Positions 3,063 to 32,938 of a stretch of DNA of 34,716 nucleotides are shown in pieces. The DNA is from Saccoglossus kowalevskii (taxonomy: Eukaryota; Hemichordata; Enteropneusta; Harrimaniidae): NCBI RefSeq assembly GCF_000003605.2, contig NW_003155244.1, positions 282,264-316,979 on the forward strand, in the 5' to 3' direction. How positions within the stretch are numbered: position 1 is the first letter of the stretch; every line of letters begins with the position of its first letter. The translations under genes were made by a program, and so were the position numbers. The notes under the pieces were generated by a model that did no database searches, was not told where the DNA came from, and saw only the letters and a list, made by a program, of their open reading frames with translations.

Positions 3063-4220
3063 GTAAGAATTTTATTTTTTGTTTCATGCATTCATAAGAC
3101 AGCAGTAGATAGATAAATTATCCCTTCCTTTTATATTACTTTACATCTTAAGATCCTTTAGATAAAATTATCTGTGACCCAATTTGACTCTATCTCATCA
3201 ATAACATCATAGAGCTGCTTACATGTAATCAGTAGCTGTACTGGTACATGTACCTGTCTTCATTATACCCAGCTTAAGTGCCCATCGTTTGATGAAATGT
3301 ATCCATTTCTCATTTGGGGAGTATTTCCTAGGAAATTTTGCCTTGAAGAGTGAGAAACCCCATAGTGTATCAATGATTTGACTGAAATATTGAAACAACC
3401 ATTTAAATATTATCCATATTTTTTTTTTTCACAGACTTCATTACATTTCTGTGTTGAGTGCTTTTCAGGGAAACAATAATATTTTATCTATGTAATGGAA
3501 TTCCAATGTTTTCCTCGTCTTGGTTTCACTTGACAGCGAATAACTGACTAACTTGTTCACACTCTGTCTAATGTCTGCGCCTTCAAAGAAGAGGCACATT
3601 AATGGGATTTTTCTCATTAACAGGCCACATATACTGGCCTATTGTACTGTTGGTTAGATAGCCATGGTATTATTTGGACATGCATCTCAATATTTCATCC
3701 CAAAGACGCATAATCACTTTCGAATTTAAATATTCTTACATAGTAATATTAAAATTTGTTAATAATTTCTTCTTCTGAGATTCATGTTTAAGTTTTTCTT
3801 TACCATAGCGTTTTCTCATTGACATAGTATTCAGTCAGGCTAGAGTGGAATTTTAGTACATACGGTACAACTTAACATAAAATAGTAAAGTGACAGTTTT
3901 TGTTTTTATTTGCTATGAATTATTCAACTTCTCAGTAGGTCAAACGGACAGCATTTCTATTAAACTGATTTGAAAAATAAAATAAAGGGAGGCATATTAA
4001 TTTATTTTATAAGACTTGATGACAGAAAATAGATATTTGTGTCCGTTTTTATAAATTATCTCCTTTTTTATAAATTATCTCCTTTTTTCTCCAGACAGTT
4101 TAATTGACCATATTCTCTTGTGTAATGGCAATGGTTGGCCATATATCTACTTTCAAAGAGTCTGTGGCTGTACAAAAGTCAACAATTAAATTCTATATTT
4201 GATTTTAGGAAGACCAAAGT

Positions 4221-4540
4221 CACTGTGATTATCTGTCTCATTTGCCCCAGTGAAATGCTCACTGTGTTTCCCTGTCTCATTTGCCCCAGTGAAATGCTCA
4301 CTGTGTTTCCCTGTCTCATTTGCCCCAGTGAAATGCTCACTGTGTTTCCCTGTCTCATTTGCCCCAGTGAAATGCTCACTGTGATTATCTGTCTCATTTG
4401 CCCCAGTGAAATGTTCACTGTGATTCCCTGTCTCATTTGCCCCAGTGAAATGCTCACTGTGTTTCCCTGTCTCATTTGCCCCAGTGAAAATGTTCACTGT
4501 GATTCCCTGTCTCATTTGCCCCAGTGAAAATGTTCACTGA
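4221..4540. repeat. 39-bp minisatellite, ~8 copies
   Basis: The unit begins CTGTCTCATTTGCCCCAGTG and continues AAATGCTCACTGTGTTTCC. Variants end GTGTTTCC, GTGATTATC or GTGATTCCC. The last two copies gain an A (AAAATG) and become 40 bp. Because 39 is a multiple of three, several frames on both strands stay open across the array and read as 13-residue repeats. There is no start context, codon bias or flanking exon signal to make them genes. Confidence 0.96.
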
Positions 4541-6338: not shown

Positions 6339-8081
6339 GTATATGTCCATTGAAAAAATAAACTCATATTTTATAAACATTTTTAACAGTACCCGCTGAT
6401 AATGTAAAATTAAGTTTATACATTCAAAAATTAATGTAGAAATTAGAAAAAAAATCATGGCGTGAGTAAGCAATGATCAAAATGTGTAGGATGTGTTACA
6501 ATTTGTATTGCATTCTGGGTAGCCACACCCTTATATTCAACTGCATGTGTTTCAGGCTTTTAAAAAATAATTTCATGAAATAAAAACAAAAAAATAAATT
6601 GTCTTTTATCATACATACATGTAGTATTTACCAGTTACTTTGAGTATGTGTATGGTTTTTATTACTTTAGAGGTAATTGTGGTTAAAACTTAGATCTGCT
6701 AGCTGGCTAATTAAATCGTATTGCTTGATGCCCTCTGGGCTATGTAACACCATTCTACTAGGCTAAATTAAATGACTCTTGCTAGCCTGCTTAGAAATTG
6801 TGTATCATGCGGTAAACATTATCTCTTTCTAAATGAACTCTGTCGTTTCTAACCTGTTTTGTTTACAGATAGAAGGTTTTTGGTTGACACATGATTGTGC
6901 AACTCTTTGTGGAATATTTTCTAAAAGGAAAATATTTTAGCACAACTCAAAATACAGCAGATTTCTGTGGTCATCGTGAGCATTATACTTTTCAACATGA
7001 GTTTTATGGTGCCAATAGTTTCAGGAATTCATGAATATGATTCTGATGAAGTAATATGTTTAGGGTCTTCTCTTTGAACCCAGCTGGTCATCATGTCAGT
7101 GTTTTTGTCTGTCATATGCGAGTAATACAGTGAAGCTATCAGCAAATTTATTTTTGCCTCATTACTTGTCAATAAATTCAGTCAAATGATGAATGATTAG
7201 TAGAACCTATAGCTTGCTTGAGGTGACGTACTCGTCGATTATACCCACCAACGTTCACTGCGTGATCATAGGTTTCTTATAGTCTAGCTCACTCAATGTT
7301 ACACGCAAGCATTTTTTAATTACACTTAAAACCTCTTAAATGAAAATCCATTTACGTCAGCAAAACCTACATATTTTAAATCCATGCATTAGTCTGTCAT
7401 AATGTATTTTGATGATTTGACCGTCTGTATGAACTTTGACTCGATCAAACCAATGAAACCTATCACCGATTTCCCACACTTGTGAAGGCCTCTTAATTTG
7501 CAGGCTTTGATGTGTTGTTCAGATTGAGTTGTTTTCCTATTAATTTTACGAGTTTCATTCGTGGTAACACCTGCCCTGTTTGATACATATCTCTATAATA
7601 TCTGTATATTTAATTATTCCACGTTGACACAAACGGATATTACAAGGTGTTCAACTTGAGATTGCTTTTTTATTGGTGTTTCTAATTAATTTTTGCAGTT
7701 AAATTTTCATTGGCAATTATAGGCAGTAGTGTATTAGTATTAAAAAAAAATTATATTAACCTGGAAATGAGATGCTGTTATTATTTTTATCACTGTGACT
7801 TGATTTAATATGCTTGGGATGACTAACTTTTCTCAAAAGTAACCATTGTGCCCTCAAAGTCAATATGACAAATCACTGATGCTAACTGATTTTGATATTG
7901 AACAGAATATTGATATTTAAACTAAATAAGAGGTAACATGAGTTTTTTTTCTTGAATATCTTTCTCCAGAAGTTACCAAAATGACCAATTGACTCCCTAC
8001 AATAATCCATACACTGTTGTGTTTTCCATAAAAACTTATGTGCATAAAATTGATATGTCTTAATGTGTTTTTTTTTCACAG

Positions 8082-9490
8082 CCAACCAAGGCCCAGTGTC
8101 GACCATCATAAATCCAAGTTATGTGAACAGTTTGGACTTACAGGCCAATCAACAGTCAAATGGAGAAAAACCAACAACCATGGCCATTGCTACAGATGAC
8201 GCCAATAGGAATTTTTCCTCCTCTGCAAAAGAACATTTCACAGCCGCTTTGGAAAATGATCTTCGAATTATTGCTCTGGAGCAAATTGTGGGCCCAGACT
8301 TGGACTTCCCAAATCTGTATAACCTGGAGAACGCTGCCAATAGCAAACGCAACAATAAGAGCCGAAAAAAGTATGCGACGACTGATTTATCCGCAATGGG
8401 AATCGATTTGACAAAAGATCCCAGCGTTAACTTTCATTCGCCTGATGGTGACACTAGCTCAACGACAACAACTGAAGATGAGAGCGATGATTGTGAGAAA
8501 AAGAAGAAGAAAGCAGACTTGTTTGCTGATATTGACTTTATTGATGATGGAGTTGAGGAGGTAGAAGATTCCGAAGAAGATGAAGAGGATGAGGATGAAG
8601 AGGAAGATGATGACGTAGAGACGGATGAAATTGAAGAAGATGATGGAGGGGATTGTGAAAGTGATGAGACTGGAACAGTTGATGAGGACGATGATAAAGT
8701 TTATTATGAATCTACTGATAGAGACAGTGAACTGGAATGTATTGATCCAGGTACTGAGTCCCTGAATGAGGACAATGACACTGCAACATTAACCAGAAAT
8801 TCTGGTCCAGGATTTCTAAGTTACTACGCTAGCTTAGAATCTTCGGCTGCCAGATACATTGGCATTGGATCTGGCGAGAGCCCGGCATCCTCAAGTGTAC
8901 AAAGTGTTTATTCCGATTCTGAAGTGGACATGAAAGGTGTGATGTACGAACCATTGCAACATGAAACACCTTACTCAGAACAACAAACCACAGATAGCAG
9001 CACGGACTGTGAGTCCACCTATGAAATGCTCTATAAAAGTTTTAGTATGCGGCACAGCCAAGAACGTGAACTTGAGGAAGAGCAAGCCTATCTTGGCAGA
9101 ACATTATCACCTTATGAGGGACAGCCAGACTTTGGCTATGCCAGTGAGACGTCCTACGAGGACAAAACTCCCGGCGACACCATTCGCGATAAGTGTTTGA
9201 GCGGTAACTCTGACCTTTGTACTGTACCAAATAAACAATCTAAAGGTGGATACAATCAACATGGTGCCTCTTCATCCACTTCCGCTATAACTACAAACTC
9301 CACCTGTCTCAGTAAAGGCATCACCAAGAGCCTGTCTCTGCCTCCCGGATGGCGAGAGGTAACGGACAGTTCGGGAACCTATTACTGGCACGTGCCTAGC
9401 GGTACAACACAGTGGAGCCCACCATCTCCAGTGCCACAATCAAAAGCAAAGCATCAGGCAGCTGTACCAAAACGGTGGTCAACGGGACAG
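8082..9490 (+). CDS. FE65/APBB-family adaptor, N-terminal and WW-domain exon
   Basis: This 1409-nt exon, bounded by TTTTTTCACAG and CAG|GTAAGG, carries 469 full codons and starts two bases into a codon. In order it encodes a polar N-terminus with an in-frame, well-placed ATG at 8180; a basic motif [14 protein letters not shown] (about 8359-8400), close to the APBB2 motif RKKYALTN..AMG; a Glu/Asp-rich tract (about 8550-8700); [13 protein letters not shown] (about 8812-8850), close to an APBB2 NYYADLETSA motif; and a full WW domain at 9338-9424. The WW domain has Trp codons at 9350 and 9413, 21 residues apart, with the core [16 protein letters not shown]65 proteins are adaptors that bind the cytoplasmic tail of amyloid precursor protein and act in cytoplasm and nucleus. 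Here the WW domain would bind proline-rich partners. The long acidic tract before the WW domain is a family trait. Intron retention would end the protein 15 codons past the donor. Family confidence is high; the APBB2-like label rests on remembered motifs. Confidence 0.95.
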
Positions 9491-15766: not shown

Positions 15767-16380
15767 AGCTCCGCTGTCGACTTTGTCTAGCGGAGCTGAT
15801 CGTATGAGTGATTGTCCGTCGTCGTCCGTCGTCGATGCTTTGATACTTGGTGTATATGTACCTTGGGTAGATCTTACTTAGGTTTGTTCATTTCAAGTTG
15901 ATATCTTTAATTCTCTAATTTTGGTGAATATTTTTGTCATTTTTGGTAAAAAGTGACATTTTCGACTTCTTGTTAAAAACCACAAGTCCAATTGCTTTGA
16001 TATTACATATATAGGTACTACATGCAGACTTCTCTCAGATTTGTTCATTTTTAATGATATCTTTAATTCTCTAATTTTAGTGAATATTTTTGTCATTTTT
16101 GGCAAAAAGTGATATTTTCGACTTCTTGTTAAAAACTGCAAGTCCAATTGCTTTGATATTACATATATAGGTACTACATGTGGACCTCTTTCAGATTTGT
16201 TAATTTCGTAATGATATTTTCAATTATCTAATTTTGATGATTATTTTTGTCATTGTTGGTGAAAAGTGATATTTTTGACTGAAAACAGCAAGTCCCATTG
16301 CTTTGATACTATACATATTGTTCATTTTCCAATGATATCTTCTGTTCTTCAATTGAAATGTCATTGCTAACAGCGGAGCT
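15767..16380. mobile_element. Hairpin-headed element, AGCTCCGCT arms (614 bp)
   Basis: The left end is a perfect 9-bp stem: AGCTCCGCT (15767-15775) and AGCGGAGCT (15789-15797) around a 13-nt loop. A GTCCGTCGTC run follows at about 15816-15834, then about three degenerate ~156-bp tandem units; the block TTCGACTTCTTGTTAAAAA starts near 15961 and 16117, with a third relic near 16271. The right end repeats the arm once in inverted orientation, ACAGCGGAGCT, ending at 16380, so the outer 11 bp form terminal inverted repeats. No protein is encoded; the open frame across it comes from the internal repeats. The superfamily is unassigned and no clear target-site duplication is seen. Confidence 0.75.
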
Positions 16381-17138
16381 ATCTCAGACCGGATGCTTGT
16401 TTTTTCATTTTATAATTTTTTTTTTACTAAATGGATGTATTTTTTGATTTGAAATATTTAAAACAAAATTATATGGTTTATATGGTAACAGGCAGGATAA
16501 ACTATATACTGTAAATGATAAAACAAGATTCAGTAATTAGATGTTGTTGTCAGATGAACTTACTGTATTATGATGGAACGTTATGGCCTCGGCCTGAATA
16601 GTAATTTTTTTGATAATGTCAAAATAAATGCACATCATTTTTTATTGCCTACATGTCTTGATAAACAGTGTACAAATTCTTCCAAAAAATATGCGCCTTT
16701 ATTTTGTGAAACGTGAATTTTGTGCCAAAAGTTGACTAAAAACATGAGATGCAACGATCACGGTAACAATTTCAGTAGTTGTGCGGCAATACAGCATTTA
16801 CAAAACCCTGTGGAACCACAATAATGTATTGTTATTATTCTTCCATGTTAATTTTGTTATGGTGAGATCAAATTCAAGTCTTTCACTGATAACTACTGGT
16901 GTCTTTTTGTGTTGTATGAATTTAATAAAAATCAGTGGGGGTGGGGGTTGAAGGGGCGAAAAAAAAAGAGTTTCTAGAAGCCATAAAATGACTAAAGCTA
17001 GACATTATGTTTTCCTCTTTGATGGCACCGAAGTGGAAATCCTTCTCTGGATGTCTTACGTCTGTTAGGCATGCATGTTTCCTGTATTTCATGGTTTCCA
17101 TCTAATCCAGCATGGGATGGCTGAGATTGCCTATGTTT

Positions 17139-21587: not shown

Positions 21588-23340
21588 AGCCTGTCCATCT
21601 TTTCTAGCCAGCCCTATCCTTTCTGTCTGTGTTTCATCTTTCCTAGCCAAGGCNNNNNNNNNNNNNNNNNNNNNNNNNNNNNNNNNNNNNNNNNNNNNNN
21701 NNNNNNNNNNNNNNNNNNNNNNNNNNNNNNNNNNNNNNNNNNNNNNNNNNNNNNNNNNNNNNNNNNNNNNNNNNNNNNNNNNNNNNNNNNNNNNNNNNNN
21801 NNNNNNNNNNNNNNNNNNNNNNNNNNNNNNNNNNNNNNNNNNNNNNNNNNNNNNNNNNNNNNNNNNNNNNNNNNNNNNNNNNNNNNNNNNNNNNNNNNNN
21901 NNNNNNNNNNNNNNNNNNNNNNNNNNNNNNNNNNNNNNNNNNNNNNNNNNNNNNNNNNNNNNNNNNNNNNNNNNNNNNNNNNNNNNNNNNNNNNNNNNNN
22001 NNNNNNNNNNNNNNNNNNNNNNNNNNNNNNNNNNNNNNNNNNNNNNNNNNNNNNNNNNNNNNNNNNNNNNNNNNNNNNNNNNNNNNNNNNNNNNNNNNNN
22101 NNNNNNNNNNNNNNNNNNNNNNNNNNNNNNNNNNNNNNNNNNNNNNNNNNNNNNNNNNNNNNNNNNNNNNNNNNNNNNNNNNNNNNNNNNNNNNNNNNNN
22201 NNNNNNNNNNNNNNNNNNNNNNNNNNNNNNNNNNNNNNNNNNNNNNNNNNNNNNNNNNNNNNNNNNNNNNNNNNNNNNNNNNNNNNNNNNNNNNNNNNNN
22301 NNNNNNNNNNNNNNNNNNNNNNNNNNNNNNNNNNNNNNNNNNNNNNNNNNNNNNNNNNNNNNNNNNNNNNNNNNNNNNNNNNNNNNNNNNNNNNNNNNNN
22401 NNNNNNNNNNNNNNNNNNNNNNNNNNNNNNNNNNNNNNNNNNNNNNNNNNNNNNNNNNNNNNNNNNNNNNNNNNNNNNNNNNNNNNNNNNNNNNNNNNNN
22501 NNNNNNNNNNNNNNNNNNNNNNNNNNNNNNNNNNNNNNNNNNNNNNNNNNNNNNNNNNNNNNNNNNNNNNNNNNNNNNNNNNNNNNNNNNNNNNNNNNNN
22601 NNNNNNNNNNNNNNNNNNNNNNNNNNNNNNNNNNNNNNNNNNNNNNNNNNNNNCTGCCCATGTCTCATCTATCCTAGCCATGTCTTCCTCTCTTCTCGTG
22701 TCTCATCTATCCTAGCCAGGCATATTCTTACTGCCCATGTCTCATCTATCCTAGCCATGTCTTCCTCTCTTCTCGTGTCTCATCTATTCTAGCCAGGCAT
22801 ATTCTTACTGCCCATGTCTCATCTATCCTAGCCATGTCTTCCTCTCTTCTCGTGTCTCATCTATCCTAGCCAGGCCTATTCTTACTGCCCATGTCTCATC
22901 TATCCTAGCCATGTCTTCCTCTCTTCTCGTGTCTCATCTATCCTAGCCAGGCATATTCTTACTGCCCATGTCTCATCTATCCTAGCCATGTCTTCCTCTC
23001 TTCTCGTGTCTCATCTATCCTAGCCAGGCATATTCTTACTGCCCATGTCTCGTCTATCCTAGCCATGTCTTCCTCTCTTCTCGTGTCTCATCTATCCTAG
23101 CCAGGCACATTCTTACTGCCCATGTCTCGTCTATCCTAGCCATGTCTTCCTCTCTTCTCGTGTCTCATCTATCCTAGCCAGGCATATTCTTACTGCCCAT
23201 GTCTCATCTATCCTAGCCATGTCTTCCTCTCTTCTCGTGTCTCATCTATCCTAGCCAGGCATATTCTTACTGCCCATGTCTCATCTATCCTAGCCATGTC
23301 TTCCTCTCTTCTCGTGTCTCATCTATCCTAGCCAGGCCTA
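21588..23340. repeat. 77-bp array of paired ~38-bp subunits, split by a gap
   Basis: Right of the gap, about nine units of exactly 77 bp run from 22654 (CTGCCCATG recurs at 22654, 22731 and 22808). Each unit holds TCTCATCTATCCTAGCCA twice, so the monomer is ~38-39 bp. Copies are nearly identical, with few substitutions (CATATT/CCTATT/CACATT, CATCTA/CGTCTA). Left of the gap (21588-21653) the units are diverged, for example TTTCATCTTTCCTAGCCA. Confidence 0.95.
21654..22653. other. Assembly gap (1000 N)
   Basis: Exactly 1000 unknown bases lie inside the 77-bp array. The round size suggests a placeholder or rounded estimate, so the true array length is unknown. Confidence 0.99.
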
Positions 23341-29965: not shown

Positions 29966-30121
29966 AACTATTCACATCTCAATGTGGCTCAACCAGGTGG
30001 AGGAACGTCCTCCGATCCAGACCACAGTCTGCAAGATTTTCAAGCATCCACTCTCAGATATGCTTCTCTTAACATGACATCTAGTACAGGAAAACCAGAA
30101 AGTCCAATTCATGGCAAGAAG
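29966..30121 (+). CDS. APBB linker exon before PTB1
   Basis: 156 nt, 52 codons, phase 0 at both ends, bounded by CTTTACAG and AAG|GTAAGACT. The N-terminal half is Gly/Ser/Pro-rich and probably disordered. The second half includes DHSLQDFQASTLRYASL, which matches the LRYASL-containing linker just before PTB1 in vertebrate APBB2 (DPSLKEFEGATLRYASL). It follows the WW exon directly in frame (Gln|Asn). It would connect the WW domain to the first PTB domain; no fold of its own is expected. Confidence 0.9.
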
Positions 30122-30209: not shown

Positions 30210-30362
30210 GTGATCCGATTCCATGTCCGATCATTGGGTTGGGTTGAGATGGACGAAGTTGACCTTTCACCTGGTAAAAGCAGCGTTGCTGTCAATAACT
30301 GTATAAGACAACTGTCATACAGAAAGAATGATATCCGAGACACAGCTGGTATTTGGGGAGAG
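30210..30362 (+). CDS. APBB PTB1 domain, first part
   Basis: 153 nt, 51 codons, phase 0 to 0. It encodes VRSLGWVEM, then [14 protein letters not shown] and [10 protein letters not shown], which are hallmark FE65 PTB1 segments: the first strand, the following helix region and the loop ending in WGE. The match to remembered APBB2 (IRDTVGIWGE) is nearly exact and nearer than to APBB1. PTB1 of FE65 proteins binds partners such as the acetyltransferase Tip60/KAT5, while PTB2 binds amyloid precursor protein. Donor GAG|GTTAGTG is moderately strong. Confidence 0.97.
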
Positions 30363-30764: not shown

Positions 30765-30892
30765 GGGAAAGATATGTACATGGTATTGGAAGAAGATTTC
30801 TTGAAGTTAGTTGACGTGTCTGATGGTAGTGTTCTCAATTCCCAGCCTGTGTGTGATATCAGAGTATGGGGAGTTGGTAGAGATAACGGAAG
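30765..30892 (+). CDS. APBB PTB1 domain, second part
   Basis: 128 nt encoding 42 codons plus two bases (AG), so it ends in phase 2 inside an Arg codon. It reads GKDMYMVLEEDFLKLVD and ends IRVWGVGRDNG-R, the conserved PTB1 core strands of the family. In vertebrate FE65 this Arg is where splicing either joins directly to DFAYVARD or inserts Arg-Glu from a 6-nt mini-exon. Donor AAG|GTAAGACG is strong. The exon continuing the domain (DFAYVARD-like) is not found in this window and must lie further right. Confidence 0.97.
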
Positions 30893-32556: not shown

Positions 32557-32888
32557 GTAAATTATTCCACAGTACTCTGTCTGTCTACTCTCTTACTATT
32601 CCATTCTAGTGAACATAAATTATTCCACAGTACTCTGTCTGTCTACTCTCTTACTATTCCATTCTAGTGAACATAAATTATTCCACAGTATTCTGTCTGT
32701 CTACTCTCTTACTATTCCATTCTAGTGAACATAAATTATTCCACAGTACTCTGTCTGTCTACTCTCTTACTATTCCATTCTAGTGAACATAAATTATTCC
32801 ACAGTACTCTCTGTCTACTCTCTTACTATTCCATTCTAGTGAACATAAATTATTCCACAGTACTCTGTCTGTCTACTCTCTTACTAAT
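32557..32888 (+). repeat. 58-bp CU-rich array abutting the microexon
   Basis: Six units, with ATTATTCCAC near 32561, 32619, 32677, 32735, 32793 and 32847 (one copy is 54 bp). Each contains ACTCTGTCTGTCTACTCTCT and ends TTACTATTCCATTCTAG|TGAAC. On the transcribed strand every full copy offers a pyrimidine tract followed by CTAG or CCACAG, that is, decoy 3' splice sites. It also has repeated UCUGUCUGUCU and CUCUCUU tracts of the kind polypyrimidine-tract-binding proteins recognise. The final copy is altered to TTACTAATCCATCCATG, losing its AG. Confidence 0.95.
32882..32888 (+). promoter_or_regulatory. Consensus branch point TACTAAT
   Basis: TACTAAT matches the optimal branch-point consensus. 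The likely branch adenosine at 32887 is 45 nt from the last base of the acceptor AG (32932). No AG lies between them, so the AG exclusion zone is intact. In the preceding array copies the same place reads TACTATT, so a single T-to-A change created the consensus. Confidence 0.6.
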
Positions 32889-32913
32889 CCATCCATGTTT
32901 GTTTTATCTCCTT

Positions 32914-32932
32914 TGCTTCCAATGGTGCACAG
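32914..32932 (+). promoter_or_regulatory. UGC motifs before the microexon 3' splice site
   Basis: TGC at 32914-32916 and 32926-32928 lie within 20 nt of the acceptor AG (32931-32932). Intronic UGC next to a microexon acceptor is the known signature of activation by SRRM3/SRRM4 (nSR100) proteins through their eMIC domain. Motif position is observed; regulation is inferred. Confidence 0.45.
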
Positions 32933-32938
32933 GGAAAG
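32933..32938 (+). CDS. 6-nt microexon (GGAAAG) of APBB PTB1
   Basis: The acceptor GTGCACAG is followed by GGAAAG and the donor GTAAAAAT. The previous exon ends AG in phase 2, so inclusion reads AGG GAA AG|N, adding one Arg-Glu step (…NGR-E-R…) and keeping phase 2. That is the position, length and encoded change of the neuron-specific mini-exon of vertebrate FE65 (GR-ER-DFAY versus GR-DFAY). The donor lacks G at +5, as expected for a regulated exon. Inclusion in this animal's RNA is not shown by the sequence. Confidence 0.8.

Follow-up and report, generated by a model that had tools for sequence, protein, structure and literature searches.

A candidate six-nucleotide FE65 microexon in a probable hemichordate gene

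The question raised by this locus is whether six bases, GGAAAG, lying within an intron of an FE65 gene, are the counterpart of a microexon known from vertebrates and, if so, how old that microexon may be. According to Li et al. 2015 (PMC4317164), APBB1, APBB2 and APBB3 each have a 6-nt microexon, at places that correspond between the paralogues. Its splicing is alternative in fishes, in chicken and in mammals, and the authors conclude that it has outlived the duplication of the genes by more than 400 My. An origin before the vertebrate APBB genes duplicated – a point made by the original prediction – was thus already in print and is not new. The further statement that the vertebrate mini-exon affects partner binding stands: in mammals, inclusion of the APBB1 microexon increases binding of Kat5 (Tip60) and, less so, of APP (PMC8911335). 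The vertebrate PTB1 beta-turn that receives the insertion lies near the bound partner, and the insertion alters binding (PMC8911335, PMC4317164).

An FE65 gene and the hexamer in its PTB1 domain

The window – the whole stretch of 34,716 nt analysed here – covers the 5′ portion of a gene from the FE65 (APBB) family; its features are collected in Table 1. When the two PTB1 exons were joined they matched the Pfam PID model with an E value of 1e-18, and a 94-aa PTB1 query matched the solved FE65 PTB1 domain (PDB 3d8d) with an E value of 1.6e-34. Among the best candidates scored in the genome from which the window comes, each PTB1 exon has one locus, and both loci are in the window. The exon that precedes PTB1 presumably resembles the same stretch of human FE65L1. 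FE65/APBB genes encode a WW domain and, behind it, PTB1 and PTB2: WW and PID were found in the window and an exon for the end of PTB2 on a second contig, C51. At the level of sequence, this domain content identifies the gene as FE65 (APBB family).

The assembly (572 Mb in 4,830 contigs) interrupts the gene at a critical place. Contig C4448 stops at the last base of the window, inside the intron that bears the hexamer, and the exon that follows the microexon is absent from the window for this reason. The exon encoding RDFAYV was not found in the genome, whether the query was 300 aa or 52 aa long or took the form of a degenerate pattern; of the six PTB/PID matches in the genome one is the window, and the remaining five, inspected by eye, do not read as the RDFAYV exon. 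The exon for the end of PTB2 lies on the minus strand at G000:C51:351825-351995, 235 bases from the contig end at 352230, and has 51% identity to the human query. Its position near the end of C51 means that the FE65 gene probably crosses an assembly gap, and we infer that C51 carries the continuation of the same gene.

Table 1. Features of the FE65 gene and of the microexon-bearing intron (positions in the window; negative numbers are offsets from the microexon)
Feature	Position	Strand	Remark
Large FE65 exon with acidic region and WW domain	8082..9490	+	start set by acceptor 8080-8081
WW domain in the large exon	~9338-9424	+	Pfam WW E 4e-8
FE65 exon preceding PTB1, translation includes LQDFQASTLRYASLNM	29966..30121	+	
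First PTB1 exon	30210..30362	+	Pfam PID over both joined PTB1 exons
PTB1 exon ending VWGVGRDNGR, phase 2	30765..30892	+	
Microexon-bearing intron, runs off contig end	30893..34716	+	3,824 nt available
58-bp minisatellite	32558..32892	+	5.8 copies (TRF)
Microexon acceptor region	32862..32932	+	70 nt without AG upstream of the acceptor AG
UCUC motifs in acceptor region	-56 and -26	+	
CTAAT, putative branch point	-49, 32884-32888	+	
UGC motifs in acceptor region	-19 (32914-32916), -7 (32926-32928)	+	
Candidate 6-nt microexon GGAAAG, phase 2, Arg-Glu within PTB1	32933..32938	+	
Microexon donor GTAAAA	32939..32944	+	moderate strength

The PTB1 exon upstream of the intron closes with AAC GGA AG, followed by GTAAGA, so that its last base (30892) leaves phase 2. 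The hexamer starts 2,040 nt into the intron, in the context ...GGTGCACAG, GGAAAG, GTAAAA, the bases just 5′ being CACAG. Read in phase 2 (AGG GAA AG.) it encodes Arg-Glu plus two bases of the following codon. The same Arg-Glu insertion is present in the solved FE65 PTB1 chain, in GRERDFAYV: the chain letters of PDB 3d8d, as printed in the alignment, are GRDSGRERDFAYV, and the stretch bearing the insertion prints as WGVGRDSGRERDFAYVARDK. In this comparison the tail of the query from RDFAYV on was added by us and the chain letters are alignment output; in-frame continuation into RDFAYV is an assumption, because the next exon was not found in the assembly, and the last arginine of the insertion site requires that exon to begin in phase 2. 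An APBB microexon has 6 nt, phase 2, a place in PTB1 after VGRD.GR, and Arg-Glu before RDFAYV: length, phase and place are those of the candidate, its Arg-Glu is present, and the following exon lies beyond the contig.

The central structural claims of the original prediction are therefore upheld. GGAAAG is flanked by an acceptor and a GT donor at the coordinates and with the sequence proposed, the acceptor being credible and the donor moderate; its place after VGRDNG-R, its phase and its Arg-Glu insertion, which had been likened to those of the vertebrate FE65 mini-exon, are borne out, the Arg-Glu being that of PDB 3d8d. The juxtaposition of AG and GT at 32938 raised a recursive splice site as another reading, and this was set aside on the ground that the hexamer is preceded by a complete acceptor. 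Exons of six bases are easily missed by standard annotation.

The source animal

Evidence as to the nature of the animal came from the mitochondrial contig of the same assembly (C4830; 17,037 bp). The 17 AUA codons of COX1 and CYTB face Ile in eight cases, Val in four, Met in one and other residues in four, as read from the top PDB chains; AUG codons face Met in 20 of 23 cases, and the five AAA codons face Lys four times and Glu once. A single PDB chain was used for each of the two proteins, both of which we take to be mammalian. The anticodon of tRNA-Lys is TTT (UUU), and cytochrome b (cob) stands directly behind ND5; gene names, except those of COX1 and cytochrome b, were assigned from translations.

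Published work has AUA=Ile in both echinoderms and hemichordates but in neither Xenoturbella nor chordates; in Saccoglossus AAA is Lys and tRNA-Lys has the anticodon UUU, and nd5-cob adjacency is found in hemichordates and Xenoturbella (PMC2697986, PMC3121625). The combination of AUA=Ile, AAA=Lys, tRNA-Lys UUU and nd5-cob adjacency thus indicates, on sequence characters, that the source is most probably an enteropneust hemichordate that is Saccoglossus-like. Echinoderms are ruled out by AAA, which is Lys here and Asn there; Xenoturbella is ruled out, being without the change of AUA to Ile, and cephalochordates likewise on AUA. For a protostome, the AUA=Met of the usual invertebrate code was not found, and gene order also argues against it. 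Flatworms that likewise read AUA as Ile read AAA as Asn.

The same mitochondrial characters contradict the original prediction where it took the animal to be a probable protostome. With them goes its suggestion that the microexon might be older than the protostome-deuterostome split, which finds no support here: given a hemichordate source, the sequence has no bearing on that split. Two further observations concern contig C4830 itself: COX1 is on the minus strand and the other large genes are mostly on the plus strand, which tells against a simple gene-order match, and repeated stretches occur near the contig end (~16,243 to 17,037).

Splice signals and competing explanations

According to a study of fly and mammal exons, those that depend on eMIC share a layout in which the AG exclusion zone is long, UGC lies close to the acceptor, tracts are rich in UCUC and the branch point is of the form CUAAY (PMC8797185), and this is the layout displayed by the microexon acceptor (Table 1). 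Ten AG-N6-GT sites occur in the available intron: the microexon acceptor is the sole one with more than 58 AG-free nucleotides and the most pyrimidine-rich (0.68 versus 0.45-0.55). Comparison with four further FE65 acceptors in the window gives UCUC within 100 nt at none of the four, UGC within 40 nt at two (twice in one of them), CTAAT at one (at about -20) and AG-free zones of >96, 53, 59 and ~23 nt; for the PTB1b acceptor the position used was late by one base, and its offsets shift by one. Since all features but UCUC recur at these other acceptors, the combination is distinctive and the features taken singly are less so. On a weight matrix the donor scores 7.0, below the 7.6-11.4 of four other FE65 donors in the window; its score is equalled or exceeded at 33 of the window's 2,063 GTs.

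UGC near the acceptor, UCUC, CTAAY and a long AG-free zone are thus common to the candidate and to neuronal microexons governed by eMIC (Srrm3/4, Srrm234). A difference is that the eMIC domain was not located in this genome with the queries used: a search with PF15230 gave no match – the same family model was also without a match in any control genome – and neither of two motif patterns matched. In C. elegans, where the SRRM proteins are without eMIC, conserved microexons nevertheless occur (PMC7706725), and an eMIC-free route is therefore possible for the candidate.

The reading that we prefer is that the hexamer is probably the hemichordate orthologue of the 6-nt APBB/FE65 microexon, and that it may be of eMIC type. 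It shares with APBB1, APBB2 and APBB3 (FE65, FE65L1 and FE65L2) the place in PTB1 after VGRD(S/N)GR, the length of 6 nt, the phase and the Arg-Glu; it differs in that its gene is probably that of a hemichordate and has a single matching locus, and in that a minisatellite adjoins the exon. A mechanism of the Srrm2/3/4-eMIC type would splice the microexon in by way of UGC, the distant CTAAY, UCUC and the long AG-free zone, and the cis layout together with homology suggests that this would happen in part of the transcripts, mainly in neurons. Inclusion would produce GRERDFAYV and skipping GRDFAYV; the Arg-Glu would add a charged pair to the PTB1 beta-turn and so tune the binding of partners.

Against this reading stands the possibility of a chance AG-N6-GT match that is no exon, which the intron, with its ten such sites, might be thought to invite. 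Phase-2 Arg-Glu, however, is encoded at one of the ten, the candidate itself (five of the remaining nine are copies inside the minisatellite), and across 54,716 bases – the window, its 1,000 N counted, together with 20 kb of upstream sequence – Arg-Glu AG-N6-GT sites number one on the plus strand and none on the minus strand. Dinucleotide shuffles of the intron returned a bare match in 104 of 20,000 cases; the count fell to 13 of 20,000 with GTRA and to 1 of 20,000 with comparable splice signals (GTRA and a preceding 38 nt without AG and at least 60% pyrimidine), the GTRA and splice-signal thresholds having been chosen post hoc, with the site already seen. The hexamer is real as a sequence feature, beyond chance, its phase and residues being exactly those of the vertebrate exon, and a fortuitous match that is never spliced is very unlikely.

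An exon of the same ancestry could also be constitutive here, regulated skipping being a later gain of the vertebrate lineage. Its place and phase match the vertebrate ones, and our analysis, confined as it is to DNA, shows no skipping; but the eMIC-like layout of the acceptor and the moderate donor suit a regulated exon, an exon of 6 nt preceded by 2 kb of intron is difficult to define constitutively, and Li et al. report both isoforms in all three vertebrate paralogues (PMC4317164). We consider constitutive splicing unlikely. Least credible in our judgement is a true microexon of independent origin, the product of convergence at a hotspot of splicing in PTB domains. Precedent comes from the PTB domains of Tensin, which have microexons at the homologous turn (PMC4317164), and from a comparison of fly and mouse, in which convergence was preferred to common ancestry for three of the four eMIC exons that the two share; yet phase, length and encoded Arg-Glu are all the same here, and in a gene of the same family. 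The fly-mouse convergence does count against orthology, as does the weak conservation of microexons outside vertebrates: neuronal microexons are reported to be largely shared within vertebrates, with conservation dropping fast outside, even in amphioxus (PMC8797185).

Age of the microexon and the array at its acceptor

If homologous, this ambulacrarian copy of the FE65 microexon would be of stem-deuterostome age, and it may be new: nothing on the microexon outside vertebrates was found in the literature among the matches listed, though earlier reports are possible. As to relatives elsewhere, 18 stretches in viral contigs fit the peptide pattern, none of which was confirmed, and none was found in plasmids. 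FE65 itself was lost in arthropods, and C. elegans has feh-1, according to a review (PMC8304848).

On balance we lean towards the view that the common ancestor of hemichordates and vertebrates already had the FE65 microexon and regulated it, that the exon is perhaps older still, and – with less certainty – that its acceptor region seeded the decoy-like minisatellite. Were this so, the exon would be one of few neuronal microexons whose length, phase and residues have stayed the same beyond the vertebrates. A hemichordate copy of an exon that is known to affect protein binding would be a rare case of such depth, one that makes the age and the ancestral regulation of a single microexon testable; should RNA data confirm it, the origin of the microexon moves back to the common deuterostome ancestor.

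The array deserves description in its own right. A MINISATELLITE stands at the acceptor, where a tandem array with a 58-bp unit and about six copies adjoins the microexon; the pyrimidine-rich starts of the copies are at 32574, 32632, 32690, 32748, 32806 and 32862. Copies 1-5 have TACTATT and TTCTAG, continuing TACTATTCCATTCTAG. The last copy is diverged: it has TACTAAT, is without that AG, and runs as TACTAATCC straight into the acceptor of the microexon, the putative branch point of which sits in this copy. The acceptor region may therefore have given rise to the array, and so to five upstream tracts that resemble branch points and bear AG. A minisatellite of decoy-like copies at an acceptor would, if borne out, be an unusual regulatory layout.

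Tandem repeats occur elsewhere in the window. Exactly 1,000 N, which may mark an assembly gap or a withheld stretch within a repeat array, occupy 21654-22653; tandem repeats follow that have a period of 77 bp and contain long open frames; at 1731-1986 and 4126-4527, tandem repeats give rise to overlapping open frames in several frames.
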